From contig NZ_BJCL01000008.1 of NCBI RefSeq assembly GCF_005403045.1, positions 1 through 64,000 on the forward strand: a DNA stretch of 64,000 nt, in the 5' to 3' direction. This DNA comes from Pseudaquabacterium pictum. GTDB lineage: Bacteria; Pseudomonadota; Gammaproteobacteria; Burkholderiales; Burkholderiaceae_C. Shown one piece after another: positions 31,218 through 56,290 of this stretch. A model generated the notes under the pieces. The model did no database searches, was not told the origin of the DNA, and saw nothing but the letters and a program-made list of their open reading frames with translations. The number at the start of each line of letters is the position of its first letter. The stretch's first letter is position 1. A program made the position numbers and the translations under genes.

Positions 31218-31239
31218 GCGGCCTGCGGCGCAGCAGCCG

Positions 31240-31449: not shown

Positions 31450-31459
31450 GCGGCCAAGG

Positions 31460-31645
31460 CTACAGCATCAGAGCGAGCCGCTCGAGGATCAGCACGCCAA
31501 AAAACCCCATGGCCGCCAGCAGGGCCCACTTCAGCAGCAGCATGCCGCGCCGGCGCCACACCACCTGCCCGGTGCCGATGGACATGGCGAAGCACAGCAG
31601 GCTGGCCAGCAACAGCAGGCCGAAGACCAGGCGGAAGATCAGCAT
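31460..31645 (-). CDS. small two-helix membrane protein
   Basis: The 61-residue protein has two hydrophobic helices ([19 protein letters not shown] and LLKWALLAAMGFFGVLILE) separated by a basic turn with RRRG, an arrangement giving a cytoplasmic loop. Function is unknown. It starts 13 bp after the lpxC stop. Confidence 0.6.
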   Translation of the reverse strand: MLIFRLVFGLLLLASLLCFAMSIGTGQVVWRRRGMLLLKWALLAAMGFFGVLILERLALML

Positions 31646-31658
31646 CGCTGGTCCGCCC

Positions 31659-32594: not shown

Positions 32595-32638
32595 GAGGGC
32601 CGGATTGTCCCGCAGATCGGCCGGGCCCGCGGCCGCCG

Positions 32639-34114: not shown

Positions 34115-34148
34115 GGAGGACGTGCGTTGGGCAGGCGCGGCGGACGGC

Positions 34149-35021: not shown

Positions 35022-35218
35022 CGACATCCTTCCGCGGACCCGCCGGCCCGGTTGCGGCGCCAATTCTCACGCAAGTTGCAGGCCCCGCCGCTGCACCAGC
35101 CTGGCGCAATGTGGCCCGCCAGCCTCCGGGAAAACCGCCGCACACCACCACCGCGCCCCGTGCAAGATGGTTGCCACAACAACCCCGGCGCGGCGCGCCG
35201 ACCCAGCAGGAGACAGCG

Positions 35219-37834: not shown

Positions 37835-37850
37835 GCGCGAGGATGGCGGC

Positions 37851-40424: not shown

Positions 40425-40612
40425 GCCATGCCTCCAGGGTTGAGGCCGTGATCTGACCAGCGCAGCCTGCCTTGCACCATGCGGGATGACGAGCAGGAAC
40501 CCCGCGCTGGCAACGGGAACCGGTGGCCGATGTCGCCTGCGTGACCGGCCGTCCGCATCAACCGGGCCGCTGCTGGACCGGGCCGGCCATCGCCCGTAGC
40601 ATCGGCCGCCTC

Positions 40613-41425: not shown

Positions 41426-43206
41426 GCCCCGGCACCGGCCCGGCGGAGGCCTGGCGGCTGCTGGCCGCCGCGCTGGATGTGCCCGGCCTGCAACTGCAGC
41501 CGCTGCCCGGTGCCAGCCGCTGGCGTGGCGGCCTGGGCGATGCCGGCGTGCTGGCGCTGGACCCGGCCGCCGCCCCGGCACGGCAACGCCTGCAGGTGCT
41601 GCGCCATGTGCTGGACCGGCAGGCCGACGGCCGCTGGGCGCTGGACGGGCTGGCCGCCGGCCTCGGCCGCCCGGCGCAGGGCCGGCTGCTGCGGCGGCTG
41701 TTCCTGTGGCTGGACGGCCGCCGCGTCGATGCCCGGCTGGCCGCCTGCTTTCCCGGTGCGCAGGCCGATCTGGCGCTGGACCCGGCCCCGCGCCTGCCAG
41801 CCTGGGTGGCCGCCCACCAGCCGCCCGGCCCGCCACCGGCCACGGCGGCCGCCGCGCTGCAGCAGGCGCTGGACTGGCACCAGCAGTTGCTGGCCTTGGG
41901 ACGCCGCCGCGTGCGGCGGGCGGCGCCGGCGTGGCTGCGCATCCAGCCTGCCGTGGGCCCGGCCGACCCGGCAGCGGCCGGGCCGCCAGGCCATGGCAGC
42001 GCGGCCGGCCCGGGCGCCGGCGGCGCGCCAGCGGCTGCCAGCCCGGCACCGCAGGCGCACGGAGCAGGCATGGTCCTGTCGGAGGCTGACCGGGCCGCTG
42101 CCGACCCATCGACGCAGCCGCCAACCGAGGCCATGGGCCAGCCTGCCGCGGGTGGTCGCACCGCGCGGCCACGGCTTGCGCCGGCCGGCCCGGCAGGCGC
42201 CGAGGTCCGCACCACCTTGTACGACGAGTGGGATGCCCAGCTGCAGGCCTACCGCCGCCACTGGGTGGCGGTGCACGAGCGCCCGCTGGTCGGCCACGAT
42301 CTGCAGGCGCTGGCCGATCTGCGCCGGCGGCACGCGCCGCTGGTGCGCCAGATCCGGCAGCGCTTTGCCAGCCCGCTGGCCGGCGCACCGCGGCGCGAAC
42401 GCCGGCTGAGCGATGGCGATGCAGTGGACCTGGATGCCGCGCTCGATGCCCAGGTGGCCCGCCGAACCGCCCGCGCCGCCAGCGACGACCGCGTCTACCA
42501 GGCACGGCCGCTGCACCAGCGCTCGCTCAGCGTGGCGCTGCTGCTGGACTGCAGCAGCAGCACCGGCTTCGCCATCCCCGACCACCAGGCCACGCCGGCC
42601 GAGACGGCAGCCGACGATGTGCTCTGGCATGCATTCGGCAGCCGGCAGAACCAGGCCGCGCTGCAGCCGCCGCGGCGGGTGCTGGACGTCACCAAGGACG
42701 CCGCCGGCCTGCTGTGCGAGGCGCTGCAGGCCATGGGCGACCGGCATGCGGTCTTCGGCTTTTCGGGCGCCGGGCGGCTGCAGGTCGACATCGACCTGGT
42801 GAAGGACTTCGATGCCCCCTGGGCCGCCGCGGCCGGCGCGGCCCTGGCAGCCCTGAAGCCGCAGGGCGGCACCCGCACCGGCGCGGCGGTGCGCCATGCC
42901 ACCCAGCGCCTGCTGGCCGAGCCGTCGCAGCGCCGGGCGCTGATCGTGCTGTCCGACGGCTACCCGCAGGACCGCGACTACGGCCAGGGCACGCAGGCGC
43001 TGCAGCACGGGCTGCAGGACACCGCCCAGGCCTTGCGCGAGGCCCGGCGGGCCGGCGTGGCCAGCTTCCATCTGTCGGTCGACGCCGCGGCGCACGACTA
43101 CATGCGCCGCATCTGCCCGCCGCACCGCTACTGGGTGGTGGAGGCGGTGGACGCGCTGCCGGCGCGCATGCTGGCGCTGGTGCGGCTGCTGGCGCGGCCG
43201 GCCTGA
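41422..43206 (+). CDS. VWA-domain protein, CbbO/NorD type, partner of the MoxR ATPase
   Basis: The 594-residue protein starts with a GTG overlapping the ATPase stop. The N-terminal half is Ala/Arg-rich and includes a low-complexity Pro/Ala/Gly linker at about 180-250. The C-terminal VWA domain has the MIDAS DxSxS as LLDCSSSTGF and later LSDGYPQDRDYG. This architecture fits NorD/CbbO adaptors that hold a metalloprotein client for the MoxR ATPase. The client is not evident from neighbours. Confidence 0.86.
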   Translation: MSPGTGPAEAWRLLAAALDVPGLQLQPLPGASRWRGGLGDAGVLALDPAAAPARQRLQVLRHVLDRQADGRWALDGLAAGLGRPAQGRLLRRLFLWLDGRRVDARLAACFPGAQADLALDPAPRLPAWVAAHQPPGPPPATAAAALQQALDWHQQLLALGRRRVRRAAPAWLRIQPAVGPADPAAAGPPGHGSAAGPGAGGAPAAASPAPQAHGAGMVLSEADRAAADPSTQPPTEAMGQPAAGGRTARPRLAPAGPAGAEVRTTLYDEWDAQLQAYRRHWVAVHERPLVGHDLQALADLRRRHAPLVRQIRQRFASPLAGAPRRERRLSDGDAVDLDAALDAQVARRTARAASDDRVYQARPLHQRSLSVALLLDCSSSTGFAIPDHQATPAETAADDVLWHAFGSRQNQAALQPPRRVLDVTKDAAGLLCEALQAMGDRHAVFGFSGAGRLQVDIDLVKDFDAPWAAAAGAALAALKPQGGTRTGAAVRHATQRLLAEPSQRRALIVLSDGYPQDRDYGQGTQALQHGLQDTAQALREARRAGVASFHLSVDAAAHDYMRRICPPHRYWVVEAVDALPARMLALVRLLARPA

Positions 43207-43239
43207 CGGCGGGCCGGCGCAGCGGCTCGGGTCAGCCGG

Positions 43240-43746
43240 TCAGGCGGCCGGCGGCGGCGCGGCGTCCAGCGCCGCCTCCAGCAGCTGCAGCGCTGCGGCG
43301 GCAAAGGCCAGCATGTTGGCGGCGCGGTCGCCGTGGCCGGTGCGCAGCATGCGGTCCAGGGCCACCGGGCCGTCCACCGCCAGGCAGCTGTGGCCGGCGG
43401 GGTCGCCATAGGTGTTGCCGTCGGGGCCGGCGGCGCCGGTCTCGGCCAGGCCCCAGCTGGCGCGGAAGCGGCTGCGCTGGTGGCGCGCCAGCAGCGCCGC
43501 ATAGGGCGGGCTGGACGAGCGCATGCCCACGGTGTCGTCCGAGGTCAGCGTGGTCAGCAGCCGGCGCGAGCGGCGGGTGTACAGCACCGCGCCGCCAAAG
43601 TAGTAGGCCGAGGCACCGGCCCGCGACAGCAGCGCCGCCGACAGCAGCCCGCCGGCCGAGGATTCGGCCACCGCCAGCGTCTCGCCGCGGGCCACCAGCT
43701 TGTCGCCGACGCGCTGGCCCAGCGCGAACAGGGTGTCGAGGTCCAT
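43240..43746 (-). CDS. CinA C-terminal domain family protein, possible nicotinamide-nucleotide amidase
   Basis: The 168-residue protein starts at the ATG at 43746. The family motif is AVAESSAGGLLSAALLSRAGASAYYFGG, which corresponds to the conserved catalytic TAESCTGG-type region with the Cys replaced by Ala. ASWGLAETGAAGPDGNTYGD matches the usual GIAGPDGGT region. It lacks the CinA N-terminal domain, like PncC. PncC deamidates nicotinamide mononucleotide in pyridine-nucleotide recycling. It follows the dioxygenase gene by 14 bp. Confidence 0.78.
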   Translation of the reverse strand: MDLDTLFALGQRVGDKLVARGETLAVAESSAGGLLSAALLSRAGASAYYFGGAVLYTRRSRRLLTTLTSDDTVGMRSSSPPYAALLARHQRSRFRASWGLAETGAAGPDGNTYGDPAGHSCLAVDGPVALDRMLRTGHGDRAANMLAFAAAALQLLEAALDAAPPPAA

Positions 43747-43760
43747 GGCTGTGTCCGTTC

Positions 43761-44684
43761 TCAGGCTGCCTGGCCCTGGGCCACCGGCGGCACCAGCAGC
43801 TGGGTGCGCAGGTGGCTGTGGTCTTCCAGGTGGTAGTCGTTGCGCTGGAACACCAGGCTCACCAGCAGCCGGGGGTGCACCGACGGCGACTGCGCCTTGT
43901 GCAGACCGAAGGTGTCCTCGGCAAAGCCCAGGCCGGCCGGGCCGTGCAGCTCGCGCATGGCCGGTGCACCGTAGCCCCGGCGCACCTGCTCGTCGGTCCA
44001 GCGCTTCTTCTGGAAGCCTTCCACCGTCAGCTGCTTCCAGCCCGGCCGGTGCGACTGCAGCACGAAGTGGTGCGAGCCATCGCCGGCCTGCACCGGCGTG
44101 ATGTAGAAGAAGAACTTCAGGAAGGCCCAGTCGTCGATGTCGCGGTGGAAGAAGTGCGCCGCCTTCTTGCGCGTCTTCTCGTCGGCATCGGTCGGGAAGG
44201 TCCACCACAGCTGGCGCGACACCAGCTGCGCGCCAGCGCCCAGGTAGGCCTGGGCCACCGCATGCACCTGGGGCGAATCGCAGACCGCCCGCATCGCGGC
44301 GCAGCCCTGCTCGGGGTTGAAGTACACCGCCTTCAGGATCGGACGGCCCAGCGCCGCCTCGGCCTGGGTGCGCTGGTGCGGCAGGAAGCCGTGGGCCGGG
44401 TTCTCGTAGGCGAAACAGGGCGAGCTGTCGGCCCAGCGTTGGATGTCGGCCACCACGTCGGGGCGCAGCCGCAGGTGCGGCGCCAGGCCATCGCGCTCCA
44501 GATCCGCCAGCATCGCCGCGGTGCTGGCGCTGGCCTGCACCGGATCGGCCGCCGCGGTGGGCAGCGGACCGTCGGCCGGCTGGCCCTGCCGCGCCCGGGC
44601 CATCGTGGCCCGCCGCACGCCGCTGAACCGGGCGATGCGCTGCATGAACTCGTAACTGGCGCGGGCAAGCAGGGGGCCGGACAT
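43761..44684 (-). CDS. phytanoyl-CoA dioxygenase-like Fe(II)/2-oxoglutarate oxygenase
   Basis: The 307-residue protein starts at the ATG at 44684. AHFFHRDIDDW contains an HxD pair, with the second His in TFGLHKAQSP, giving a 2-His-1-carboxylate iron site. RLLVSLVF nearby supplies the Arg expected to hold 2-oxoglutarate. The PhyH superfamily hydroxylates lipids, antibiotics and other small molecules. The N-terminal 60 residues are basic and poorly conserved in appearance. The substrate is unknown. Confidence 0.68.
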   Translation of the reverse strand: MSGPLLARASYEFMQRIARFSGVRRATMARARQGQPADGPLPTAAADPVQASASTAAMLADLERDGLAPHLRLRPDVVADIQRWADSSPCFAYENPAHGFLPHQRTQAEAALGRPILKAVYFNPEQGCAAMRAVCDSPQVHAVAQAYLGAGAQLVSRQLWWTFPTDADEKTRKKAAHFFHRDIDDWAFLKFFFYITPVQAGDGSHHFVLQSHRPGWKQLTVEGFQKKRWTDEQVRRGYGAPAMRELHGPAGLGFAEDTFGLHKAQSPSVHPRLLVSLVFQRNDYHLEDHSHLRTQLLVPPVAQGQAA

Positions 44685-44816
44685 GGCAGGTCTTTCGGTG
44701 GACGCCGGATGATACGGGCCGGCTGTCACCGAGGCGGTGCACCCGCGGCGCCGGCTTCGGCACACTGGGTCCATGCCCCGCCACCGCCCGCCCCTGCGCA
44801 CCGCCCGCCGCACCAA

Positions 44817-44840
44817 CCGCCACAACACCCGCCACAACAC
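44817..44840. repeat. tandem 12-base repeat before thioesterase gene
   Basis: CCGCCACAACAC occurs twice head to tail, ending 6 bases before the thioesterase ATG. It occupies the place where a Shine-Dalgarno sequence would be expected. Confidence 0.6.
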
Positions 44841-44846
44841 CCGCCC

Positions 44847-45674
44847 ATGAGCGCCTTCGACGACGACACCCGGGTGTGGCCCGGCGACCGCCCCGGCCGC
44901 TACACCGGCACGGTGCACCCGGCCTGGAACATCGGCGCCAACCCGAACGGCGGCTACCTGCTGGCGCTGGCCGCGCAGGCGCTGCGCCAGGCCACGCCCA
45001 ACCAGCCCGATGCGCTGAGCATCACCGTGCACTACCTGCGCCCCGGGCTGGCCGGCCAGCCCTGCGAGATCGACACCCAGGTGCTGCGCAGCGGCCGCAC
45101 GCTCAGCACCGTGCGGGCCACGCTGGTGCAGGACGGCAGCGCCCGCATGGAGCTGCTGGCGGCCATGGGCGACCTGGGCGCCGCCGGCAGCCAGCCGCCG
45201 CCCGTCATCGCCCTGCCGCGCCCCGTGCTGCCGCCGCCCGAGGCCTGCCCCGGCCGCTCGGCCTCGGCCCAGGGCGTGGGCTTGCCGATCCTCAACCGCC
45301 TGGACATCCGCCTGCACCCCGACCAGGCCGTGCCCGGCGCTGCCGGCGAGGCGCGGGTCAGCGGCTGGATCCGCTTTGCCGACGGCCGCGCACCCGACGC
45401 CCTGGGCTGCCTGCTGATGGCCGATGCCTTCCCGCCCGCGGTGTTCGGCCTGCTGGGCATGGTGGGCTGGGTGCCGACCATTGAACTGACGGTGCACCTG
45501 CGCGGCCGGCCGGCGCCGGGCTGGCTGATGGGCGCCTTCTGGGCGCAGGACCTGCGCGACGGCCGGGTGATCGAGGATGGCGCGCTGTGGGATGCCGATG
45601 GCCAGCTGGTGGCCCAGGCCCGGCAGCTGGCCCTGGTGCGCAGCCCTGACGGCGGTGCCAAGGCCCCCGGGTGA
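44847..45674 (+). CDS. acyl-CoA thioesterase-like double hotdog protein
   Basis: The 275-residue protein resembles the TesB-like thioesterase family: WNIGANPNGGYLLALAAQAL near the start, SITVHYLRPGLAGQPCEI, and a second hotdog half with PTIELTVHLRGRPAPGWLMG. It probably hydrolyses acyl-CoA esters. No purine-rich ribosome-binding site precedes its ATG; a tandem repeat is there instead. It overlaps the EamA-type transporter gene by 4 bases. Confidence 0.78.
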   Translation: MSAFDDDTRVWPGDRPGRYTGTVHPAWNIGANPNGGYLLALAAQALRQATPNQPDALSITVHYLRPGLAGQPCEIDTQVLRSGRTLSTVRATLVQDGSARMELLAAMGDLGAAGSQPPPVIALPRPVLPPPEACPGRSASAQGVGLPILNRLDIRLHPDQAVPGAAGEARVSGWIRFADGRAPDALGCLLMADAFPPAVFGLLGMVGWVPTIELTVHLRGRPAPGWLMGAFWAQDLRDGRVIEDGALWDADGQLVAQARQLALVRSPDGGAKAPG

Positions 45675-46675
45675 GCAGCGCCGGCCCCGCCCCGGCCGAG
45701 ACCGCCCGCCAGGCGCTGCTGGTCGGCACCGCGGGCTACCTGTTCGCTGCGGTGCTGTGGGGCCTGAACCTGCCGCTGTCGGCCGCGCTGCTGAAGCACT
45801 TCGATCCGTTCTGGGTGTCGCCGCTGCGCTATGTGGTGGCCACGGTGCTGCTGGGCGCGATGGTGCTGGTCTCGCAGGGGCCGGCGCAGCTGCGCAGCCC
45901 CATCCCGCTGTGGCGGGTGGCGGTGCTGAGCGGGTGCGTGGCCGGCTTCCTGGTGCTCTACAACCTGGGGCTGTTCCGCACCCATCCGATGACGGTGGCG
46001 GCCATCTCGGCCGGATCGCCGGTGTACGTGGCGGTGGTGTCGCGGCTGATGACCGGCGCACGGCTGGAGCGCGGCTTCTGGGGCGCCACCACGCTGACGC
46101 TGATCGGCGCGGGCATCGCGATTGCCGGCCGCAGCCAGGCCCTGGTGGATGCCGGCGGGCCGGCGGTGGGTGTGGCACTGCAGCCGCGGGGCGGCGAGCT
46201 GCTGGTGGTGCTGGGCATCTGCAGCTGGACGGCCTATTCCATCCTGGCGCAGCGCTGGTTTCCGCCCACCACGCCGCAGCTGCGCCGCACCTGGCTGACG
46301 ACGGTGTGGGCCCTGCCCTGGCTGTTCGGCTTCTGGGCGCTGGCCCGCGCCACCGGCCTGGCCGGCGCACCCAACCTGAGCCCCGCGCCGCTGCCGGTGG
46401 TGCAGCTGCTGATCGCCGCGGTGTTCTGCACCGCGCTGGCCACCGTGGCCTGGAACACCGGCGTCAACCGCCTGGGCATCCAGACCGGCGGCATGTGGCA
46501 GAACACCGTGCCGGTGTTCGCGGTGCTGATCTCGCTGCTGTTCTTCGGCGTGCAGCCGCTGCCCGCGCAGATCCTGGGTGGCGCCATCGTGTTGACCGGC
46601 GTGCTGTACATGCAGTGGCAGCGCAGCCCGGCTCGGCAGAAATCACCAGTTCCCAGCCCCACCGCAAAGGACTAA
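45671..46675 (+). CDS. EamA-family DMT superfamily transporter
   Basis: The 334-residue protein has ten hydrophobic segments in two EamA halves: LFAAVLWGLNLPLSAALLKH and, in the second half, ELLVVLGICSWTAYSILAQR. It is probably a metabolite exporter or importer of the inner membrane. The start is a GTG overlapping the thioesterase stop. The substrate is unknown. Confidence 0.86.
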   Translation: MSSAGPAPAETARQALLVGTAGYLFAAVLWGLNLPLSAALLKHFDPFWVSPLRYVVATVLLGAMVLVSQGPAQLRSPIPLWRVAVLSGCVAGFLVLYNLGLFRTHPMTVAAISAGSPVYVAVVSRLMTGARLERGFWGATTLTLIGAGIAIAGRSQALVDAGGPAVGVALQPRGGELLVVLGICSWTAYSILAQRWFPPTTPQLRRTWLTTVWALPWLFGFWALARATGLAGAPNLSPAPLPVVQLLIAAVFCTALATVAWNTGVNRLGIQTGGMWQNTVPVFAVLISLLFFGVQPLPAQILGGAIVLTGVLYMQWQRSPARQKSPVPSPTAKD

Positions 46676-46684
46676 GCTTTGGCC

Positions 46685-47527
46685 ATGATCGACACACCCG
46701 ACGCCCCCACCGCCGCCGCCACGGTCCCGATGATCGATGGCATCCCCCTCACGCCCAAGCAGGTGACCGTGATCGGCGCCGACCAGATGGCGCCAGCGCC
46801 CACGGTGGCGGCCGAGCGGCTGCGGCGCAAGCAGAAGCTGGCCGGTGCGCTGCGCATCTTCGGCCGCTTCGGCTTCGGCGAGGGCGTGGCCGGCCACATC
46901 ACCGTGCGCGATCCCGAGTTCCCCGACCATTTCTGGGTGAACCCGCTGGGCCTGTCGTTCCGCCATATGAAGGTGTCGGACCTGCTGCTGGTCAACCACC
47001 ATGGTGAAGTCGTCATCGGCAAGCATGCGGTCAACCGCGCCGCCTATGTGCTGCATGCCGCGGTGCACGCGGCCCGGCCCGACGTGGTGGCCGCCGCGCA
47101 TGCGCACTCGGTCTACGGCAAGGCCTTCAGCGCGCTGGGCGTGCCGCTCGATCCGCTGACCCAGGACGCCTGCGTGTTCTACGAGAACAACGTGGTCATC
47201 GCCGAGCATGGCGGCGCCGTGGTGTTCGAGACCTCGGCCGGCGCCGATTTCGCCCGCGCCTTCGGCCAGAACCGCGCGGCCATCCACCAGAACCACGGCC
47301 ACTTCACCGTGGGTGCGTCGGTGGACGAGGCGGTGTTCTGGTATGTCTGCTTCGAGCGCTGCGCCCAGGCCCAGCTGATGGCCATGGCCGCCGGCACGCC
47401 CAAGCTGGTGCCGCATGCCAACGCGGTGTACACCCGCGAGAACGCCGGCAGCGCGGCCGTGGGCTGGACGCACTTCCAGCCGCTGTGGCAGGAGATCTGC
47501 CGCACCGACCCCGAGCTGTTCGACTGA
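46685..47527 (+). CDS. class II aldolase/adducin-family protein
   Basis: The protein is 280 residues from the ATG at 46685. The fold is marked by GRFGFGEGVAGHITVRDPEF, the zinc site AAHAHSVYGKAFS and the later His in QNHGHFTVG. Relatives cleave sugar phosphates or act as epimerases or decarboxylases. A TTG at 46679 lies 7 bases after AAAGGA and could be the real start, adding two residues. The aldo/keto reductase gene follows 19 bp later. Confidence 0.85.
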   Translation: MIDTPDAPTAAATVPMIDGIPLTPKQVTVIGADQMAPAPTVAAERLRRKQKLAGALRIFGRFGFGEGVAGHITVRDPEFPDHFWVNPLGLSFRHMKVSDLLLVNHHGEVVIGKHAVNRAAYVLHAAVHAARPDVVAAAHAHSVYGKAFSALGVPLDPLTQDACVFYENNVVIAEHGGAVVFETSAGADFARAFGQNRAAIHQNHGHFTVGASVDEAVFWYVCFERCAQAQLMAMAAGTPKLVPHANAVYTRENAGSAAVGWTHFQPLWQEICRTDPELFD

Positions 47528-47546
47528 CTTGGCGGCGCCCACCCTG

Positions 47547-48557
47547 ATGCAGTACCGCCGCCTCGGCACCAGCAACCTGCAGGTGTCGGCCCTGTGCCTG
47601 GGCACGATGATGTTCGGCGACCAGACCGATGCGGCCGAGGCCGGCCGCATCGTCGCCCATGCCCACGCCGCCGGCGTGAATTTCATCGACACCGCCGATG
47701 TGTACACCCACGGCGCGTCGGAATCGATGGTGGGCACGCTGATCCGGCCGCACCGGCATGACTGGGTGCTGGCCACCAAGCTGGGCAACGCGATGTCGAA
47801 GCGGCCCAACGAGGGCCATTACTCTCGCATCTGGATGCTGCGCCAGGTGGAAGCCAGCCTGCAGCGGCTGCAGACCGACCACATCGACATCCTCTACCTG
47901 CACCGGGATTTCCCGGGCATGGACCTGGAAGAACCGCTGCGGGCGCTGGACGACCTGGTGCGCGGCGGCAAGATCCGCCACTGGGGCCTGTCCAACTTCC
48001 GCGGCTGGCGCATTGCCGAGCTGGTGCACGGCGCGGCACGGTTGAACATGCCGGGGCCGGTGGTCTGCCAGCCGTACTACAACCTGCTCAACCGCATGCC
48101 CGAGGTCGAGATCCTGCCGGCCTGCGACCACCATGGCATCGGCGTGGTGCCCTACAGCCCGATCGCCCGCGGCGTGCTGACCGGCAAGTACCTGCCCGGT
48201 GCCCAGCCCGAGCCCGGCAGCCGCGCCGGCCGCGGCGACAAGCGCATCGCCGAGACCGAGTTCCGCGCCGAGAGCCTGGCCATCGCCCAGCAGCTGCAAG
48301 GCCATGCCGAGGCCCGGGGCGTCACGCTGGCGCAGTTCGCCACCGCCTGGGTGCTGGCCAACCGCATGGTCAGTTCGGTCATCGCCGGCCCGCGCACGCT
48401 GGCGCAATGGGAGAGCTACCTGCCCGCGCTGGACTGCAGCCTCACCGCCGAGGATGAAGCCCTGATCGACGGCCTGGTGGCCCCCGGCCACCCGTCGACA
48501 CCGGGATTCAACGATCCGGCCTATCCGCTGGTGGGGCGGCGCACCAAGGCCGGCTGA
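47547..48557 (+). CDS. aldo/keto reductase
   Basis: The 336-residue protein is a classical AKR with LGTMMFG near the start, the catalytic Asp-Tyr in FIDTADVYTHG, the Lys in VLATKLG, and YLHRDFPG in place of the usual LHxxD. The NADPH-binding GPRTLAQWE is near the C-terminus. It reduces a carbonyl with NADPH; the substrate is unknown. The Ser in SNFRGW follows the family pattern. Confidence 0.9.
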   Translation: MQYRRLGTSNLQVSALCLGTMMFGDQTDAAEAGRIVAHAHAAGVNFIDTADVYTHGASESMVGTLIRPHRHDWVLATKLGNAMSKRPNEGHYSRIWMLRQVEASLQRLQTDHIDILYLHRDFPGMDLEEPLRALDDLVRGGKIRHWGLSNFRGWRIAELVHGAARLNMPGPVVCQPYYNLLNRMPEVEILPACDHHGIGVVPYSPIARGVLTGKYLPGAQPEPGSRAGRGDKRIAETEFRAESLAIAQQLQGHAEARGVTLAQFATAWVLANRMVSSVIAGPRTLAQWESYLPALDCSLTAEDEALIDGLVAPGHPSTPGFNDPAYPLVGRRTKAG

Positions 48558-48588
48558 GACCCGCTGCCGGGCGGCACCCGGCGCACCG

Positions 48589-50964
48589 ATGCAACAGACA
48601 TTCCCGCCCTACCCTGGCGACGCCAGCGGCCGCGATGAAACCGTGCGCGCCGATGTGACGCTGCGGCCCGACGGCACCCGCCGCTTCACCTTGCAGTCCA
48701 GCCAGGCGCAGCGCGACGGCGCGGCGCAGCAGCGCAGCATCGATGAACTGCCGGACGCGCCCCGCGTGCAATCGCCCAGCGCCCTGTTCGACGCGCTGTT
48801 TGCCATGGCGGTGGACGACGCCCGCCTGAACAGCGTGGACGCGATCCAGGACGCCGCCTACAACGGCGGCCAGCCCATCCCCTGCCGCGGCTTCCAGACC
48901 GGCGAGCGCTGGCACTATGTCTGGACGCGTGACCTGGCCTACGCGGCCCACCTGGGCCTGGCCTGGCTGGACCCGGAGCGCACCGCGACATCGCTGCTGT
49001 TCAAGACCAGCGGCTGGCGCGACGGCATCACCCCGCGGGCCGGCCTGCCGGCCAGCAGCACCCAGATCGTGCAGGACACCGGCTCGGGCGGCAGCTGGCC
49101 GGTGAGCACCGACCGGGTGAGCTGGGCCTGGGCCGCCCAGAGCGTGCTGGACATGCTGGACGGCGATGCGCGGCAGGCGTTTGCCGACCGCGCGCGGGCT
49201 GCCCTGCAAGGCACGGTCGAGGCCGACCGCCTGGCGGCATTCGACCCCGCCTCGGGCCTCTATGGCGGCGAGCAGTCCTTCCTGGACTGGCGGGTGCAGA
49301 GCTGCGCGCCCTGGATCACCGACCAGCTGGCGCGCATGGCCGGCGCGCGTGCGCTGTCGACCAACGTGGCGCACTTCCAGGCCTTGCAGCTGCTGGCGCA
49401 GCTGTCCGACGCCGCGGGCGATGCCGCTGCGGCGGCGCGCCATGCCGGCTGGGCGGCCGATCTGCGCACGGCGATCGACCGGGTGTTCTGGCTCGATGAG
49501 GCGCAGCAGTACGCCAGCCTCACCAGCGACGACGGCCACCCGATCGCGCTGCACAAGTTCGACCTGCTGGGCACGGCGCTGGCCGTGGTCAGCGGCGTGG
49601 CGCCGCCGCAGCGGGCCGCCGAGGCGCTGGCCCGCTATCCGCATGCGCCGTTCGGGGCGCCGGTGCTGGCGCCGCAGCAACCGGGCGTGCCGGTCTACCA
49701 CAACCGGGCGATCTGGCCCTTCGTCACCGCCTACGCACTCCGCGCTGCCGCTCAGGTGGGCAACCCGGCCATCGCCGGCCATGCCTTCGATTCGCTGCTG
49801 CGGGGCGCAGCACTGAACCTGTCGAACATGGAGAACCTGGAGTGGCTGACCGGCCTGCCGCAGTTCGATGATGGCCCGGTCATCAACTCGCGGCGGCAGC
49901 TGTGGTCGGTGGCCGGCTACCTGGGCGCCGTCGCCGAGAGCGTCTTCGGCTGGCGGGTGACCGGCGACGGCCTGCACATCGCCCCGTTCCTGACCACCGC
50001 CGCACGGCGCGCGCTGGGCGACGGCGCGGCCGCCACCCTGTCGGGCCTGCGCTGGCGCGGCCACCGGCTGGAGATTGCGCTGGCCCTGCCACCGATGCCG
50101 GCCGACGCGGCCGGGCCCGCCCACTACCCGGTGCTGCAGGTCACGCTGAATGGCCAGGCGATCAACGGCGTGATCGGGCCGCAGCAGCTGGCTGCCGGCG
50201 ACAACCGGATCACGGTGGCGTTTGGCTCGCCGGTGCCCGGCGACACACGGATCGCGCGGGTCGCGACCGTCGATGCGATGGACCGGGCGGATGCGCGGGT
50301 GTTCGCGCCCGATGTGCCGCAGGTGCTGTCCCTCGACCGCACGCCCGGCGGCACCGTGCTGCAGTTCGCTGCCCCAGCCTACCGCGAGGCGCTGCGCTTC
50401 AACATCTACCGCGATGGACACCCGGTGGCCACCGGCCTGGCCGCCCCCACCTGGACCGACCACCAGGCGCAGCCAGGCGTGGCCCATGTCTATGCGGTGG
50501 AGGCGATGGGCATGGCCTCGGGCCACCGGTCGCACCTCAGCGCACCGGTGCGGCTGGACAATTCGGTGCAGCGGCTGGCCTTGGGCGACTGGTTCGTTCG
50601 CGACCGCGCGGGCCCGGTCGGCCTGGAACTGCTGTACGACAACCATGCGCACGAGACGCAGACCGGGGTGACCAATGCCGTCAAGGTCTTGCGGGTGCGG
50701 GACAGCGCTGGCCAGGCAGTGGCGCAGGGCGTCGTGCAGATGCCCCACATCGAACCCGACGGCGACCGCCATCCGCTGCGGCTGTCGACGATGCTGCGCT
50801 GCCAGTTGCCGGCAGGCCGCTACCGCGCCGAGTTGGCCGACTTCTTCAACATGAGCCACCTGCAGGCCAATGCCAGCTACGGCGGCGCCGGCGGCGCCGG
50901 CGGGCCGCTCAATGCGGCCGACATCGCCGCGCTGCAGGTGGTGACGCTGCCCGACACGCGCTGA
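48589..50964 (+). CDS. six-hairpin glycosidase-like protein
   Basis: The 791-residue protein has the (alpha/alpha)6-barrel blocks GFQTGERWHYVWTRDLAYAA, LPASSTQIVQDTGSGGSWP and VYHNRAIWPFVTAYALRAAA. These fit glycoside hydrolases of the GH15/37/63-like clan. Beta-rich C-terminal regions include RFNIYRDGHPVATGLAAPTW and an Ala/Gly run YGGAGGAGGP. No signal peptide is seen at the N-terminus, unusual for such proteins, so either it is cytoplasmic or its 5' end was lost. Just beyond its 3' end lies the ftsZ remnant. Confidence 0.72.
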   Translation: MQQTFPPYPGDASGRDETVRADVTLRPDGTRRFTLQSSQAQRDGAAQQRSIDELPDAPRVQSPSALFDALFAMAVDDARLNSVDAIQDAAYNGGQPIPCRGFQTGERWHYVWTRDLAYAAHLGLAWLDPERTATSLLFKTSGWRDGITPRAGLPASSTQIVQDTGSGGSWPVSTDRVSWAWAAQSVLDMLDGDARQAFADRARAALQGTVEADRLAAFDPASGLYGGEQSFLDWRVQSCAPWITDQLARMAGARALSTNVAHFQALQLLAQLSDAAGDAAAAARHAGWAADLRTAIDRVFWLDEAQQYASLTSDDGHPIALHKFDLLGTALAVVSGVAPPQRAAEALARYPHAPFGAPVLAPQQPGVPVYHNRAIWPFVTAYALRAAAQVGNPAIAGHAFDSLLRGAALNLSNMENLEWLTGLPQFDDGPVINSRRQLWSVAGYLGAVAESVFGWRVTGDGLHIAPFLTTAARRALGDGAAATLSGLRWRGHRLEIALALPPMPADAAGPAHYPVLQVTLNGQAINGVIGPQQLAAGDNRITVAFGSPVPGDTRIARVATVDAMDRADARVFAPDVPQVLSLDRTPGGTVLQFAAPAYREALRFNIYRDGHPVATGLAAPTWTDHQAQPGVAHVYAVEAMGMASGHRSHLSAPVRLDNSVQRLALGDWFVRDRAGPVGLELLYDNHAHETQTGVTNAVKVLRVRDSAGQAVAQGVVQMPHIEPDGDRHPLRLSTMLRCQLPAGRYRAELADFFNMSHLQANASYGGAGGAGGPLNAADIAALQVVTLPDTR

Positions 50965-50997
50965 GGCACGCCACGCGCGCCCGCCGGCCTCCCGCCG

Positions 50998-51310
50998 CCT
51001 GCTTGCGCGGGAAGGCGGGAATCTCGATCTCGTCCATGCCATTGCGCGACAGCGCTTCCATCTTGGCCGCGGCCTGGTGGCGGTTGGCAGGCAGCACCGA
51101 AGATCACATGCGCGTCGTCGGCCGCATCGCGGCGGATGGTGTTCATCGCTGCACAGCGTTCGCTGTGCTTGACGTTGGCCTTGTTGGCGGCGATTAGCAC
51201 CAGCACACGGCCCGGGAACTGGCTCGCCATGGCGGGCCTGCGCGCGCCGCTCAGGTCGATGCCTTCGGGCAACGGGCAGGTCACGGCCGCCTTGGTGGTG
51301 CGGTCGGGGT
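50998..51310 (-). pseudogene. decayed partial copy of the ftsZ 3' end
   Basis: Read on the minus strand, the region encodes LPEGIDLSGAR, then VLVLIAANKANVKHSERC and AAMNTIRRDAADDAHVIFGA. It then jumps to TNRHQAAAKVEALSSNG-like sequence (here ANRHQAAAKMEALSRNG) and MDEIEIPAFPRKQA. All of these match the intact FtsZ at 55061-56290. About 245 bp of the C-terminal linker are deleted, a roughly 30-bp insertion interrupts GAR/VLV, the frame shifts and the stop codon is lost. The DNA is about 85-88% identical to the intact copy by eye. Confidence 0.9.
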
Positions 51311-51396
51311 TTGCACCCGCCTCCGACCCTCAGCCGATGTACGACCTGATGACGAAGCAGACAGTCAGCCATCAGGCACGGACGCAACCTCAGACG

Positions 51397-52386
51397 TCAG
51401 TCTGCGTAGGACCCTGCCGCCTGGATGACCTTCGCCCACCGCATCACTTCAGCTTCCACAAACTTCTTGTGCGCAGCCGGTTCCACGCGAGCATCCGAAA
51501 CGACGGTGATGCCCAGCGCCTCCTGGCGCTTGATGAGTTCGGGATCCTTCAGCGCTCCGCGCAGCGCCTCGTTCAGCTTCGCAAGCACGGGCGCGGGCGT
51601 GTTCTTGGGCGCGTAGAGGCCGTGCCACACCGTCACGCCGAAGTCCGGCAGGCCAGACTCCGCCAGTGTCGGCAGGGACGCCAGCGAGGGCAGCTTCATG
51701 CGCTCCTTGCTCGTCACCGCGAAGGCGCGCACCTTGTCGCCCTCGATCTGCGGCACGGCGTTCGTCGCCTGCTCGCACATCAGGTCGACCGTGCCCCCCA
51801 TCAGGTCCGTCATCGCCGGTCCCGTGCCCTTGTACGGCACCGTGGTCAATTCCGTCTTCAACGCACTCTGCAGCATCAGCCCGCACAGATGCGAGGCCGA
51901 GCCCACGCCAGCGTGGGCCAAGTTGACCTTGGTCGGGTCGGCCGCGATCCACTTGCGCAAGTCGGCAAAGCTCTTGGCCGGCAGCGTCGTGCGCCCGATC
52001 AGAGTCGACGGCGCTTCGTTGATGAGGCCGAGGTAGGCGAAGTCGTCGATGCCCTTGTAGGGCAGCTTGCGGTACAGGGTGGGTGCCGTCGCGAAACCAA
52101 TGTGGTGCACGAGCAGCGTGTAGCCGTCGGCAGAGGCCGTCGCCACCTTCGCTGCGCCCAACGTGCCGCCGGCACCGCCCACGTTCTCGACGATGACCGT
52201 CTGGTTGAGCTTCTTGCGCAGCGCTTCGGCCAGGTCGCGGGCGATCTTGTCGCTCGGTCCGCCTGCGGCGAAAGGCACCACCAGAGTGACGGGCTTCTCT
52301 GGGAACTCCGCCCGGGCCGCGCCCACGCCGGCCAGAAGAACCGAGGCCACGGCAAGGCCCCACGTACGCCGATGCAATTTGTCCAT
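51397..52386 (-). CDS. Bug/TctC-family solute-binding protein of the tartrate module
   Basis: The 329-residue protein starts at the ATG at 52386, 5 bases after GGAGA. It has a signal peptide (RRTWGLAVASVLLAGVGA, cut after ARA) and the Bug opening EFPEKPVTLVVPFAAGGPSD. Its promoter shares an operator-like sequence with the D-tartrate dehydratase promoter, so it probably binds tartrate or a related acid. There are no TctAB genes nearby. Confidence 0.9.
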   Translation of the reverse strand: MDKLHRRTWGLAVASVLLAGVGAARAEFPEKPVTLVVPFAAGGPSDKIARDLAEALRKKLNQTVIVENVGGAGGTLGAAKVATASADGYTLLVHHIGFATAPTLYRKLPYKGIDDFAYLGLINEAPSTLIGRTTLPAKSFADLRKWIAADPTKVNLAHAGVGSASHLCGLMLQSALKTELTTVPYKGTGPAMTDLMGGTVDLMCEQATNAVPQIEGDKVRAFAVTSKERMKLPSLASLPTLAESGLPDFGVTVWHGLYAPKNTPAPVLAKLNEALRGALKDPELIKRQEALGITVVSDARVEPAAHKKFVEAEVMRWAKVIQAAGSYAD

Positions 52387-52438
52387 GCTTGTCTCCGTTG
52401 TGGAGCGCCTCAAAAGAGCGCCATGGACGAGATGATCG

Positions 52439-52500
52439 GGATCTGCGCCGCCGAGGGCCAATGCCCAATTTCTTGGCTTTGATGCCTTCAAAGCACCGCC
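52439..52500 (-). promoter_or_regulatory. operator and promoter region of the Bug gene (twin of the tarD promoter)
   Basis: Read on the minus strand, GGCGGTGCTTTGAAGGCATC and AAAG (52500-52477) are followed 12 bases later by GCATTGG and 8 bases later by GGCG. CGATCAT follows just downstream (to 52433). The same order and near-identical spacing precede tarD. The operator ends 90 bp before the Bug start. Confidence 0.65.
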
Positions 52501-52515
52501 GTCGGAACCACCGCC

Positions 52516-53436
52516 TCAGTGACCCGACGCGGCTGCGCTGGCCGCCTTCCAGAAGTGTTCGGCAGCCTTGCCGGACTGTCCACGCTGGCGGTACAGGCGC
52601 ACCTGCAGATCGATGCGCCAGTCGTCCGGCGCCGCGACGGCGAGCCGTCCGCTGGTCAGGTCGTCCTCGACCAGCAGCTTCGGAAGCCACGCGAGGCCGC
52701 GCCGGTCCAGCGCCATTGTTCGCAGCACCGATGCCAGGTGCGCCGTGAGTGCCTGGTGCACGTGCAGCCGATCCAGCGCGGGCCCCTTCAACTCCTTGAG
52801 GATGCGCCCGAGCCCGGACTCAGGGCTGTAGCCCAGCCATGGAACTGGAGCACCCTTGCTACTTTCAGGCAGCGCGTGAAGTGGCTCGCCGCCTTCTCCG
52901 GGTGCCGAGACTGGGATCAGCTGGTCCGCCCCGACGACGATGCTCGGAAAGTCTGCCTCGTCCAACGGCCCGCGCACACCCGGGTGCCCGTGAGCCAGCA
53001 TGAAGTGCACCTGGTTCTGCGCCAGCAGCGTCTCGCACTTCTGCTGCACGTCCGACATCAACTGCAGTTGCCCCATCGACGCCTGCGCCTCCAGGGCATG
53101 CAGCCAGCGCGGCATGAAGGTGAACGACAGCGCATGGGTGGCCGCGAAGCGCAACGTCGTCGAACTGGCCTCCGCGATGGCCCGTGCCTCGCCCGGCATG
53201 CCGGCCACGCGCGACTGCAGGTCCTGCGCGACCGTTCGGAACCACTCGCCCACCTCGGTGACCCGCGCCGGCTGCGAGCTGCGGTCGAACAGGTCCGCGC
53301 CGAGCCACTCTTCCAGAGCGCGGATGCGCCGGCTGAAGGCCGGCTGCGTCATGTGCCGCTCGTCGGCCGCACGCGAGAAGTTGCCGGTGGACGCAAGCGC
53401 CATGAAGTCGTCGATCCAAGACAAGTTCATGGTCAT
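52516..53436 (-). CDS. LysR-family transcriptional regulator
   Basis: The 306-residue protein has the LysR helix-turn-helix (FMALASTGNFSRAADERHMTQPAFSRRIR) near the start and a periplasmic-binding-like effector domain. It is divergent from the D-tartrate dehydratase gene, and the Bug gene lies downstream on the same strand. A 24-base sequence just upstream of its start recurs inverted just beyond its end, so that each copy faces one target gene. It probably activates both targets in response to tartrate. The ATG at 53430 is an alternative start. Confidence 0.92.
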   Translation of the reverse strand: MTMNLSWIDDFMALASTGNFSRAADERHMTQPAFSRRIRALEEWLGADLFDRSSQPARVTEVGEWFRTVAQDLQSRVAGMPGEARAIAEASSTTLRFAATHALSFTFMPRWLHALEAQASMGQLQLMSDVQQKCETLLAQNQVHFMLAHGHPGVRGPLDEADFPSIVVGADQLIPVSAPGEGGEPLHALPESSKGAPVPWLGYSPESGLGRILKELKGPALDRLHVHQALTAHLASVLRTMALDRRGLAWLPKLLVEDDLTSGRLAVAAPDDWRIDLQVRLYRQRGQSGKAAEHFWKAASAAASGH

Positions 53437-53505
53437 GGCGGTGCTTTCAAGGCATCAAAGACTAGATAAACAGCATTGGGCAGAACCGGCGCCGCCCACG
53501 ATCAT
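53437..53505 (+). promoter_or_regulatory. LysR operator and promoter of tarD
   Basis: GGCGGTGCTTTCAAGGCATC and AAAG (53437-53460) contain the arms CTTTCA and TCAAAG, a LysR-type T-N11-A box. GCATTGG (53473), GGCG (53488) and CGATCAT (53499) follow as in the Bug gene promoter. It ends 40 bp before the GTG start of tarD. Confidence 0.65.
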
Positions 53506-53545
53506 TTCGACATCGCAACCCCAACCCGACCCGCAGGAGACCACC

Positions 53546-54712
53546 GTGAAGATCGTCGAGATTCGTGAGAAGACCATCCCCATCAGCTCTGCCATCCGCA
53601 ACGCCTACATCGACTTTAGCAAGATGAACCTCAGCCTCGTGGCCGTCGTGACCGACGTGATCCGCGATGGCAAGCCGGTGGTGGGCTACGGCTTCAACTC
53701 CAACGGCCGCTACGGCCAGGGCAGCATGATGCGCGAGCGCTTCATCCCACGCATCCTGGAGACGAAGCCCGATGACCTGATCGACGCCAGCGGCAAGAAC
53801 CTCGACCCGCACAAGATCTGGAACGCCATGTTCCGCAACGAGAAACCGGGCGGCCACGGTGAGCGCTCGGTGGCCATCGGCACGATCGACATGGCCGTGT
53901 GGGACGCGGTCGCCAAGATCGAAGGCAAGCCGCTGTTCCAGCTGCTGTCCGACCGCTACGGCGATGGCAAGCCGAACCGCAAGATCTTCGTCTACGCCGC
54001 CGGCGGCTACTACTACCCGGGCCAGGACTACAAGAAGCTTCAGGACGAGATGAAGAGCTACATCGACCGCGGCTACACGGTGGTGAAGAAGAAGATCGGT
54101 GGCGCCTCGCTCGACGAGGACCTGCGCCGCATCGACGCCATCATGGAAGTGCTGCAGGATGGCCAGAAGCTGTGCGTGGACGCCAATGGCAAATTCGACC
54201 TGGAAACGGCCGTTGCCTACGCCAAGGCGCTGTCGCAGTACAACTTGTTCTGGTACGAGGAGCCGGGCGACCCGCTGGACTACGAGCTGCAGGCCACTTT
54301 GCGCCAGTTCTACAAGAACCCCATGGCCACCGGCGAGGACCTGTTCTCGATGCAGGACGCGCGCAACCTCATCCGCTACGGCGGCATGCGCCCCGACCGC
54401 GACTGGCTGCAGTTCGACTGTGCTCTGAGCTACGGCCTGGTCGAGTACCTGCGCACGATCCAGATGCTGAAGGAACACGGTTGGTCGCCCAGCCGCTGCA
54501 TCCCGCACGGCGGCCACCAGATGTCGCTGAACATCGCGGCAGGTCTGGGCCTGGGTGGCAACGAGAGCTACCCCGACCTGTTCCAGCCCTTCGGCGGCTT
54601 CCCTGATGGTGTGAAAGTCGACAACAGCTACGTCACGCTGCCGGACCTGCCCGGCATCGGCTTCGAAGGCAAGGCCGATCTGTTCCGTGAGATGAAGGCA
54701 CTGGCCGGCTGA
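53546..54712 (+). CDS. tarD: D(-)-tartrate dehydratase, enolase superfamily
   Basis: The 388-residue protein starts with a GTG 5 bases after CAGGAGA. It closely resembles the characterised Bradyrhizobium D-tartrate dehydratase as I remember it: SAIRNAYIDFSKM, GYGFNSNGRYGQG, EKPGGHGERSVA, FVYAAGGYYYPG and CIPHGGHQMSLNIA. The catalytic lysines are in VVKKKIGGA; metal ligands are in CVDANGKF, WYEEPGDP and ATGEDLF; the His is in IPHGGHQ. It dehydrates D-tartrate to oxaloacetate. It is divergent from lysR, and a short frame overlaps its stop. Confidence 0.92.
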   Translation: MKIVEIREKTIPISSAIRNAYIDFSKMNLSLVAVVTDVIRDGKPVVGYGFNSNGRYGQGSMMRERFIPRILETKPDDLIDASGKNLDPHKIWNAMFRNEKPGGHGERSVAIGTIDMAVWDAVAKIEGKPLFQLLSDRYGDGKPNRKIFVYAAGGYYYPGQDYKKLQDEMKSYIDRGYTVVKKKIGGASLDEDLRRIDAIMEVLQDGQKLCVDANGKFDLETAVAYAKALSQYNLFWYEEPGDPLDYELQATLRQFYKNPMATGEDLFSMQDARNLIRYGGMRPDRDWLQFDCALSYGLVEYLRTIQMLKEHGWSPSRCIPHGGHQMSLNIAAGLGLGGNESYPDLFQPFGGFPDGVKVDNSYVTLPDLPGIGFEGKADLFREMKALAG

Positions 54713-54975
54713 TGTCCTACAGGGCCGAGCGCCCTGTCTCCGCCTGCACGCTGCGGGAAGCCAGCCCTTTCGAGGTGACAGTGGACGGCACGCCGTACAG
54801 CCGCCGCCGCCCTACGCATCGCCACTTTCGGACCCATGATGCCGGTAGGCCTCGCCGCTGCGGATCGCGCGTCGCGCGGTTCGAACGTCAGGTGTCTGGC
54901 GCTGCCGGGAGCGACGGCTCCTGGCCGGTTCCCGCCGCCCGGCCCGCCGCCCAAGCCCCGGGCTGGCATGGCTGA
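54712..54975 (+). CDS. short hypothetical reading frame after tarD, possibly a truncated gene
   Basis: The 87-codon frame starts with an ATG overlapping the tarD stop (TGATG). It begins MSYRAERPVSACTLREASPF and becomes Arg-rich and low in complexity after about residue 30. I recognise no family. The coupled start suggests the 5' part of a former operon gene cut off by the recombination that joined the module to the ftsZ end. It may equally be non-coding. Confidence 0.3.
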   Translation: MSYRAERPVSACTLREASPFEVTVDGTPYSRRRPTHRHFRTHDAGRPRRCGSRVARFERQVSGAAGSDGSWPVPAARPAAQAPGWHG

Positions 54976-54993
54976 ACCGACCAGAGGTGAAAC

Positions 54994-55027
54994 AGCCCCC
55001 AGACCCGGCGTCCCAGGTCTGGGGGCT
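54994..55027 (-). terminator. terminator hairpin after ftsZ
   Basis: AGCCCCCAGACC and GGTCTGGGGGCT form a perfect 12-bp stem with a 10-base loop, 33 bp beyond the ftsZ stop. On the minus strand it is followed by GTTTC, a weak T-run. Confidence 0.75.
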
Positions 55028-55060
55028 TGCTTGCAAAGGCCCCCGCTGCGGGCCGCAGCC

Positions 55061-56290
55061 TCAGTCCGCCTGCTTGCGCAGGAAGGCCGGGATCTCGATC
55101 TCGTCCATGCCGTTGGATGACAGCGCTTCCACCTTGGCCGCCGCCTGGTGGCGGTTGGTGCGCCACACGCTGGGCGTGCTGAGGTTGCCGTAGTCGGGCT
55201 GCTGGACCTGGCCCGTGCCACCGGGCTGCGGCGTGGCCAGCACCTGGTTCAGGATGGGCAGGTTGTCGGTGCCGGTGCGCAGCGCGGGCTGGGCGGTGGG
55301 CTGCACCACCGTCAGCGGCGGGGTCTGCTGGCGGGCGCCGCGGCTCAGGCCGGTGGCGATCACGGTGACGCGCAGTTGGTCGCCCAGGCTGTCGTCGTAG
55401 GCGGCGCCGAAGATCACATGCGCATCGTCGGCAGCGTAACGGCGGATGGTGTTCATCGCCGCACGGCTTTCGCTGAGCTTGAAGTTGGCCTTGTTGGCGG
55501 CGATCAGCACCAGCACGCCGCGCGCGCCGCTGAGGTCGATGCCTTCGAGCAGCGGGCAGGCCACGGCGGCTTCAGCAGCTTTGGTGGCGCGGTCGGGGCC
55601 GCCGGCCTGGGCCGTGCCCATCATGGCCTTGCCGGGCTCGCTCATCACCGTCTTCACGTCCTCGAAGTCGACGTTGACCAGACCGTGCATGTGGATGATG
55701 TCGCTGATGCCGCCCACGGCGTTCTTCAGCACGTCATTCGCGTGGGCGAAGGCCTGGTCCTGGGTCACGTCGTCGCCCAGCACGTCCAGCAGCTTTTCAT
55801 TCAGCACGACGATCAGGCTGTCGACATTGGCTTCCAGCTCGCTGGTGCCGGCGTCGGCCTGCTTCATGCGGCGCGGGCCTTCGAAGTCGAACGGCTTGGT
55901 GACCACGCCCACCGTCAGGATGCCCATCTCCTTGGCCACCTTGGCCACGATGGGCGCGGCGCCGGTGCCGGTGCCACCGCCCATGCCGGCGGTGATGAAC
56001 ACCATGTTGGCGCCTTCCAGGCTGGCGCGCACGCGGGCCTCGGCCTCTTCGGCCGCGGCCTTGCCCTTCTCGGGCTTGCCGCCGGCACCCAGGCCGTTGT
56101 CGCCCAGCTGGATCAGCTGGTGCGCGCTGCTGCGGTTGAGCGCCTGCGCATCGGTGTTGGCGCAGACGAACTCCACGCCCTGCACGCCCTGCGTGATCAT
56201 GTGCTCGACGGCATTGCCGCCACCCCCGCCCACGCCCACCACCTTGATGCGGGTCCCCTGGTCGAATTCTTCGATCATCTCGATAGGCAT
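55061..56290 (-). CDS. ftsZ: cell division GTPase FtsZ
   Basis: The 409-residue protein has the tubulin signature GGGTGTG in ITAGMGGGTGTGAAP, the N-terminal IKVVGVGGGGGNAVEHM, and the C-terminal peptide EIEIPAFLRKQAD that binds FtsA and ZipA. It forms the division ring. AGGAGAG lies 6-7 bases before the ATG at 56290. It is the last gene of the dcw cluster, and a strong hairpin follows instead of the frequently adjacent lpxC. A degenerate copy of its 3' third lies about 4 kb further on. Confidence 0.98.
   Translation of the reverse strand: MPIEMIEEFDQGTRIKVVGVGGGGGNAVEHMITQGVQGVEFVCANTDAQALNRSSAHQLIQLGDNGLGAGGKPEKGKAAAEEAEARVRASLEGANMVFITAGMGGGTGTGAAPIVAKVAKEMGILTVGVVTKPFDFEGPRRMKQADAGTSELEANVDSLIVVLNEKLLDVLGDDVTQDQAFAHANDVLKNAVGGISDIIHMHGLVNVDFEDVKTVMSEPGKAMMGTAQAGGPDRATKAAEAAVACPLLEGIDLSGARGVLVLIAANKANFKLSESRAAMNTIRRYAADDAHVIFGAAYDDSLGDQLRVTVIATGLSRGARQQTPPLTVVQPTAQPALRTGTDNLPILNQVLATPQPGGTGQVQQPDYGNLSTPSVWRTNRHQAAAKVEALSSNGMDEIEIPAFLRKQAD

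Follow-up and report, generated by a model that had tools for sequence, protein, structure and literature searches.

A decayed second ftsZ 3' end in Pseudaquabacterium pictum as a probable trace of recurrent insertion at ftsZ

Why does a decayed copy of the 3' end of ftsZ lie beyond the intact gene in Pseudaquabacterium pictum, and how are the genes between the two copies related to it? The stretch in question (the window) comprises 64,000 nucleotides, namely positions 1 to 64,000 of contig NZ_BJCL01000008.1 (G000:C8:1-64000), from a genome (G000) of 6.14 Mb in 64 contigs. An earlier note, made from the sequence alone, had taken the decayed copy for the far border of an inserted tartrate module and had left the choice between foreign DNA that recombined at ftsZ and an older tandem duplication. 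Comparison with related genomes leads us to regard it as rather probable that the window locus represents one event of a recurrent insertion that displaces the end of ftsZ in Sphaerotilaceae relatives.

Two ftsZ 3' ends in one locus

The ftsZ side of the locus contains the following features:

55061-56290, minus strand: intact ftsZ (409 amino acids), preceded by ftsA
54712-54975, plus strand: frame of 87 codons with no Pfam or NCBIfam match, described earlier as a cut-off frame
53549-54712, plus strand: enolase-superfamily dehydratase (Pfam)
52516-53436, minus strand: LysR regulator (Pfam)
51397-52386, minus strand: Bug/TctC-type solute receptor (Pfam)
50995-51310, minus strand: decayed ftsZ 3' end (the remnant), in the same orientation as the intact gene

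The remnant lies 3.75 kb past the stop of the intact ftsZ and consists of two blocks, corresponding to ftsZ nucleotides 692-892 (codons ~231-298) and 1132-1225 (codons ~378-409). Between them 239 bases are missing, and the first block has 30 bases inserted and 9 missing. The piece is thus a 3' end, as had been stated, but it covers, with an internal gap, the last ~44% of the gene and not its last third. On aligning, 255 of 286 bases (89.2%) are identical to the local ftsZ, slightly above the 85-88% estimated by eye. In a search of the whole genome the two blocks were found with E-values of 2.5e-42 and 2.2e-29 and the next match at 2.3e-5, so that the second ftsZ 3' piece stands out clearly from the rest of the genome. 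A further candidate relic at 46348-46406 on the opposite strand (48.2 bits) exceeds all of the six other window genes that score 30.1-41.0 bits against the same ftsZ region; the match is short, falls in the GC-rich linker part of ftsZ, and was left as probably due to chance.

The insert and its empty site

On the other side, the locus is delimited by native neighbours:

35022-55060: whole stretch between the native neighbours, absent at the same place in G020 and G016
35264-50964: older block of 13 predicted genes with host-like composition
34149-35021, minus strand: Tll0287-like/HAMP gene, which adjoins ftsZ in G020
32639-34114: protein kinase gene, next after the Tll0287-like/HAMP gene and followed by lpxC
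31659-32594: lpxC

In G020, the equivalent of window positions 31658-35023 is joined to ftsZ, with ~0.2 kb between, and therefore the window from ~35.02 to ~55.05 kb is an insert relative to this genome. The same junction is present in G016, with ~1.1 kb between. The remnant is consequently not the far border of the insert, which continues to ~35.02 kb beside the Tll0287/HAMP gene, the kinase gene and lpxC. Some of the insert genes have homologues elsewhere in the G020 genome. In the window, ftsZ and lpxC are 22 kb apart; in other relatives, the spacing is 65-220 bases in many and kilobases in others. G012, of the same genus, carries a different insert of 21.7 kb at the same place, beside the same row of Tll0287/HAMP, kinase and lpxC.

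The older block includes FMO/hydrolase, CoA transferase, Bug, CbbQ, VWA, CinA, thioesterase, EamA, class II aldolase, AKR and MGH1-like genes, and parts of it also occur in G010, next to lpxC, and in contigs of G002 and G006. The MGH1-like glycoside hydrolase gene (48589-50964, 791 amino acids) stands between the remnant and the AKR gene; G010 has the matching pieces on other contigs (C97 and C530), so this gene is also variable here.

The genes between the two copies were compared with 40 flank genes, whose G+C content at third codon positions (GC3) is 0.934 (standard deviation 0.023) and whose codon-usage distance is 0.201 (standard deviation 0.052). The Bug, LysR and dehydratase genes have GC3 values of 0.867, 0.853 and 0.907 and codon-usage distances of 0.388, 0.44 and 0.205, respectively, while the block at 35-51 kb has a GC3 of 0.933. 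Because both measures deviate from the host, the Bug and LysR genes look foreign in composition, whereas the dehydratase is near-normal. The closest solved structures of the dehydratase are the chains 2dw7 and 1tzz of Bll6730 (E-value 2.6e-198), which we take to be a D-tartrate dehydratase, and no NCBIfam model reaches its cut-off for this gene. The dehydratase has homologues with 89% amino-acid identity in G031 (another genus) and, at a different genomic position, in G015 (same genus). A homologue this similar was not found in G010, G002 or G020, the assemblies of which are rated 70, 86 and 96% complete. No integrase or transposase was recognised by Pfam among all 16 genes predicted in 35.0-55.06 kb (one of them, at 43761-44684, without any Pfam match), which bears out the statement that the module has no integrase.

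Which of the two 3' ends is the old one

A tree of 24 rows places the remnant and the window ftsZ as sisters (95/83); the branch of the remnant is long, and the program flags its placement as unsure. In the near relative G010, contig C157 matches window positions 46979-48530 at 91% with its aldolase and AKR genes; two other genes follow, and behind them lies an undecayed ftsZ 3' end complete with stop. In this genome, an undecayed end thus borders the older block on the remnant's side. Since the contig stops 148 bases into ftsZ, this end could be either the gene itself or a displaced copy. Another contig of G010 (C273) matches window positions 31237-38137 at 90.8%. In G002, contig C66 stops within ftsZ near codon 204, which is suggestive, as it would be expected if the assembler had met a repeat starting at codon ~158. 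The grouping of the remnant with the local ftsZ, together with the undecayed end that G010 has near the same aldolase and AKR genes, is most readily explained if the remnant is the old 3' end of the lineage itself, probably displaced by DNA that brought a new one. The part of the earlier proposal in which an insertion at ftsZ displaced the old end, with a module partly foreign in composition, is thereby supported.

Extra ftsZ 3' copies in related genomes

Within the genus, extra ftsZ 3' copies were found in 2 of the 21 genomes searched (G000 and G012); G002 and G010, of the same genus, are suggestive only and stand outside this count. In a Rubrivivax-like set, the genus of Rubrivivax sp. A210 (G439), 74 of the 81 genomes searched had an ftsZ match and 20 had more than one. 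Reading of the loci confirmed an extra 3' copy in nine of the 81 (G438, G439, G448, G457, G489, G490, G503, G504 and G506), the intact ftsZ not being found whole in G503 and G506. Left out of the count were contig-end pieces or a second, different ftsZ (G494, G501, G502, G510, G518), long frames of the VWA kind (G455, G511, G514) and single genes split at the linker (G456, G473, G496). Within a family sample of 399 genomes, no further case was confirmed, among the matches listed, in 23 of the 26 other multi-match genomes, which were re-searched; G278, G345 and G404 were left out, and G079, G098 and G356 are contig-end splits.

A common start, at codons ~158-161, is seen in nine copies from eight genomes, namely those of G438 (locus L086), G439 (locus L088), G489, G490, G503, G504 and G506 and two in G012; these codons map near 55807-55819 in the window ftsZ. 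Directly before each of the nine lies a hairpin of ~47 bases, here called hairpin E. The copy of G457 meets the contig end at codon ~161, and thus the edge observed there is that of the contig. In G012, the intact ftsZ is followed by two copies (a repeat of ~860-930 bp, 94-96% identical) and a piece of 199 bp, with different genes between them. The gene is intact in the window, and flanking repeats carry the gene end in G012, L086, L088 and G489.

The genes carried between the copies (the cargo) are diverse. From ftsZ to hairpin E, they comprise DUF5131 and DUF3800 genes with a further frame that has no Pfam match in G489; a DUF3800 homologue with type ISP and PLD-type pieces in G504; LysR, CoA-transferase, HMGL-like, glyoxalase-like, Bug and 2-hydroxyacid dehydrogenase genes in L086; BCCT and MarC transporters in G503; MCP in G490; one fn3 protein in L088; and LysR, FMN oxidoreductase, pirin and isochorismatase-type genes with a DUF772 transposase in G012. 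The series DUF3800-hairpin E-copy is common to G489 and G504, at 84.5% identity, and HsdR and YgjP stand beside the G457 copies. In G457, a segment of 4.85 kb with the order ftsZ 3' end-YgjP-HsdR is present twice (L163:3891-8712 and L164:1086-5920), at 90.3% identity. Among the genes scanned, the sole mobile-element genes were the DUF772 transposase of the G012 cargo, an IS66 transposase frame that overlaps the start of the first G448 copy, and an IS110 transposase beyond the G506 copy.

The differences between copies and intact genes fall mainly at third codon positions. For positions 1/2/3, the counts against the intact ftsZ are 1/0/10 and 0/0/10 for the two G012 copies (1/0/8 between them), 3/1/16 for L086, 0/0/1 for L088, 2/0/10 for G489, 9/4/49 for G457 and 2/5/17 for G448, and the two pieces of G503 differ from each other by 0/1/3. 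The well-preserved copies look like working ftsZ ends that were displaced recently and not like neutral duplicates, because the changes in a copy no longer under selection would not be confined to third positions.

Hairpin E and its likeness to attC

Hairpin E is a discrete element, the sequence upstream of it differing between most hosts. Its exact pattern, searched without mismatches, occurs in 6 of the 81 genomes and in 2 of 11 genomes, once in each and always at a copy; the reversed pattern, used as a control for the 81, gave 0 matches. In the seven hairpins from which the covariance model R1 was built (with a short calibration, so that its E-values are rough), 98.7% of cells are paired and 2 of 11 pairs are changed on both sides. 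The covariation score was reached by 2 of 500 shuffles, and the number of covarying pairs (2 of 11) by 166 of 500. R1 recovers its own seven hairpins and one of the two G012 junctions outside the training set (E-value 0.0017); the other was not found at E-values up to 5. Both G012 elements are a longer variant.

Two of the hairpins, when folded, have two bases bulging from the 5' arm, as does a G012 variant, whose hairpin is longer; the bulged core of integron attC sites (L''/L' with extrahelical bases) is therefore found in the hairpins of the relatives. The strict boxes R' (GTTRRRY) and R'' (RYYYAAC), as defined together with the extrahelical bases in the consulted part of PMC12901181, are present in 0 of the 9 sites, as is AAC upstream (0 of 9). 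From sequence and fold, hairpin E resembles the attC core but not the R boxes. It was also considered as a known RNA and rejected, since no Rfam family scored above its gathering score and there was one sub-threshold match elsewhere.

Beyond these genomes, hairpin E had no match at E-values up to 1 in plasmids. As an observation in its own right, an E-like pattern finds 29 sites in 28 viral contigs (L220-L247), with GTT just downstream in 29 of 29 and AAC just upstream in 28 of 29, as in integron attC, while the strict boxes are rare (R' in 5 and R'' in 3 of the 29). R1 gives 64 matches at E-values up to 1 in these 28 loci, which had been pre-chosen by the E-like pattern, and finds further unselected sites, for example four on one strand of L247, 0.44-0.54 kb apart. 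Such same-strand series hint at cassette-like arrays on phages. The viral pattern combined with the tail of hairpin E (CGCTTCGCC) gave 0 matches. As for ftsZ itself, its 3' end was matched in 37 plasmid and 3 phage records, with an identity of 60-80% throughout and with less than 80% of the query covered in every case, and it had no match in viral contigs.

A proposed recurrent insertion that displaces the ftsZ end

In the reading that we favour, incoming DNA with a replacement ftsZ 3' end, followed by the dehydratase, LysR and Bug genes, would have entered within ftsZ. The gene would have been rebuilt from the host 5' part and the incoming 3' part, and the old 3' end would have been pushed 3.75 kb downstream, where it decayed. 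Generally, the unit would run from ftsZ codon ~158 to the stop, through the cargo, to hairpin E, entering at codon ~158 and accreting in tandem, with ftsZ left intact each time. The window event may have used the same point near codon 158, and the intact 3' half of the window ftsZ would have arrived with the module. The unit may move as a circle, by the action of a recombinase in trans (or of RecA). That the window copy belongs to this class, we infer from its place, its orientation and the comparison with G012 and G010.

Several observations weigh against this reading. The window copy starts only at codon ~231, without codons 158-230 and without hairpin E, for which the best match of R1 in the window has an E-value of 3.5. 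The identity of the remnant to the G020 ftsZ (89.1%) is close to that to the local gene, and its differences from the latter at codon positions 1/2/3 (10/5/16) have a weak third-position bias, a mixture that would be expected of an old displaced end and also of an old duplicate. The composition of the dehydratase, the early end of G010 contig C157 within ftsZ and the genes between AKR and the ftsZ end in that contig, which differ from those of the window, count on the same side. Among the relatives, the decayed copy of G490 (3/5/7), the 199-bp piece of G012 and the G448 copies, which start at codons ~261 and ~246 without hairpin E, fit the pattern poorly. No integrase was recognised in the relatives' cargo genes scanned with Pfam, which were part of the cargo (whole genomes were not searched for integrase families). 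Finally, there was no sign of an exchange of ftsZ 3' halves between genera, the identity profile along the gene being like that of control groups, and the units therefore seem to move among close kin. A mosaic ftsZ exchanged between genera was rejected accordingly, mean identity by codon bins being similar in the control groups, by what is a coarse test.

A possible alternative, to which we give a minor share of our confidence, needs RecA only: direct ftsZ 3' repeats would loop the cargo out as circles, which would reinsert at ftsZ in the manner of Campbell, hairpin E would be a relic of one ancestral junction, and the start at codon 158 would be inherited and not cut anew. It agrees with the lack of a recognised integrase in the cargo and with the G457 duplicate, which looks like the arrival of the homologous locus of a relative, and the DUF3800-hairpin E-copy series of G489 and G504 may be due to common descent. 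However, it has to account for the discreteness of hairpin E against differing upstream sequence, for its pairing and covariation score (if less so for the number of covarying pairs) and for its resemblance to attC sites. A further reading, which we put forward tentatively and with some doubt, is an integron-like system. There, ftsZ would be the platform and the cassette would consist of a functional ftsZ 3' end, cargo and an attC-like hairpin, mobilized by an integron integrase in trans. Each cassette would enter at codon ~158, its own 3' end becoming the working one and the former end being pushed down an accreting array, of which the window would be a worn-out relic.

It is unlikely, in our judgement, that the lineage of the window duplicated its ftsZ 3' end in tandem long ago, with genes inserted later and no relation to the events in the relatives. 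The sister position of the remnant and the absence of hairpin E and of the codon-158 edge in the window copy speak for it, and this decayed copy, taken alone, may be such a duplicate. Nevertheless, the locus is arranged in a like manner in G012, the relatives have a shared breakpoint, the hairpin and preserved copies that differ mainly at third positions, unlike neutral duplicates, and the Bug and LysR genes are unlike the host in composition. That the remnant itself arrived with foreign DNA from a related genome is very improbable and was rejected, since, despite the foreign look of Bug and LysR and the nearly equal identities to the G020 and local genes, the tree joins the remnant with the local ftsZ (if on a long branch) and an undecayed 3' end lies close to the matching genes in G010.

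Comparison with known systems

Tn7-like elements insert downstream of glmS, carry their own transposition genes and have no long target-gene repeat. The units at ftsZ share with them the insertion beside an essential gene that is left intact, but show a long target-gene repeat and no transposition genes of their own. The closest described process, by analogy, would be the accretion of integrase-less cis-mobilizable elements (CIMEs) at gene 3' ends, treated with that of integrative and conjugative or mobilizable elements at the 3' ends of housekeeping genes in the consulted part of PMC5704250. As far as that source goes, the likeness lies in a gene that stays unbroken because one flanking repeat carries its end, in tandem accretion, in elements without their own integrase and in decayed copies. 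At ftsZ, in contrast, the target point lies ~750 bp before the stop, the repeat measures ~750-930 bp, no integrase or conjugation gene was recognised, and the right end is an attC-like hairpin. Integron cassettes with their attC and attG sites, in the sections consulted of PMC12901181, likewise have a bulged-hairpin core at the cargo end and no integrase in the unit; unlike them, hairpin E has no R'/R'' boxes, the cargo reaches 6 kb, and the cassette body would begin with the ftsZ 3' end. A study of integron integrases (PMC3108266) includes Rubrivivax gelatinosus among its listed species. Among the literature matches listed, with subscription papers outside the scope, no title or opening of an abstract has ftsZ 3' copies as an insertion site.

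Other ftsZ-like sequences

In G005, a fragment on contig C10 near an aldolase was considered as an ftsZ relic and rejected, as it belongs to a VWA-domain protein of 786 amino acids (L063:5621-7981) with an internal near-copy, of ~40 residues, of the FtsZ C-terminal tail (LSTPSVWR...EIEIPAFLRKQAD). This tail might bind the partners of the FtsZ tail. Short FtsZ-tail matches in long frames occur also in G013, G386, G395, G231, G305, G070, G455, G514 and G511, the G005 protein being the one that was read. In G061 (C1:3288981-3291076), two neighbouring ftsZ genes are 72% and 63% identical to the query, with long open frames.

Implications

If the favoured reading is true, the coding sequence of a core division gene would be a place where accessory DNA (restriction genes, transporters, catabolism) can dock repeatedly, with neither breakage of the gene nor a resident integrase, and part of the variable gap between ftsZ and lpxC in these bacteria would be explained. 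Surplus pieces of ftsZ in genomes of this kind may then be displaced relics, and the displaced ends would form a readable record of successive insertions. The system would also offer a testable case of attC-like sites acting outside integrons.

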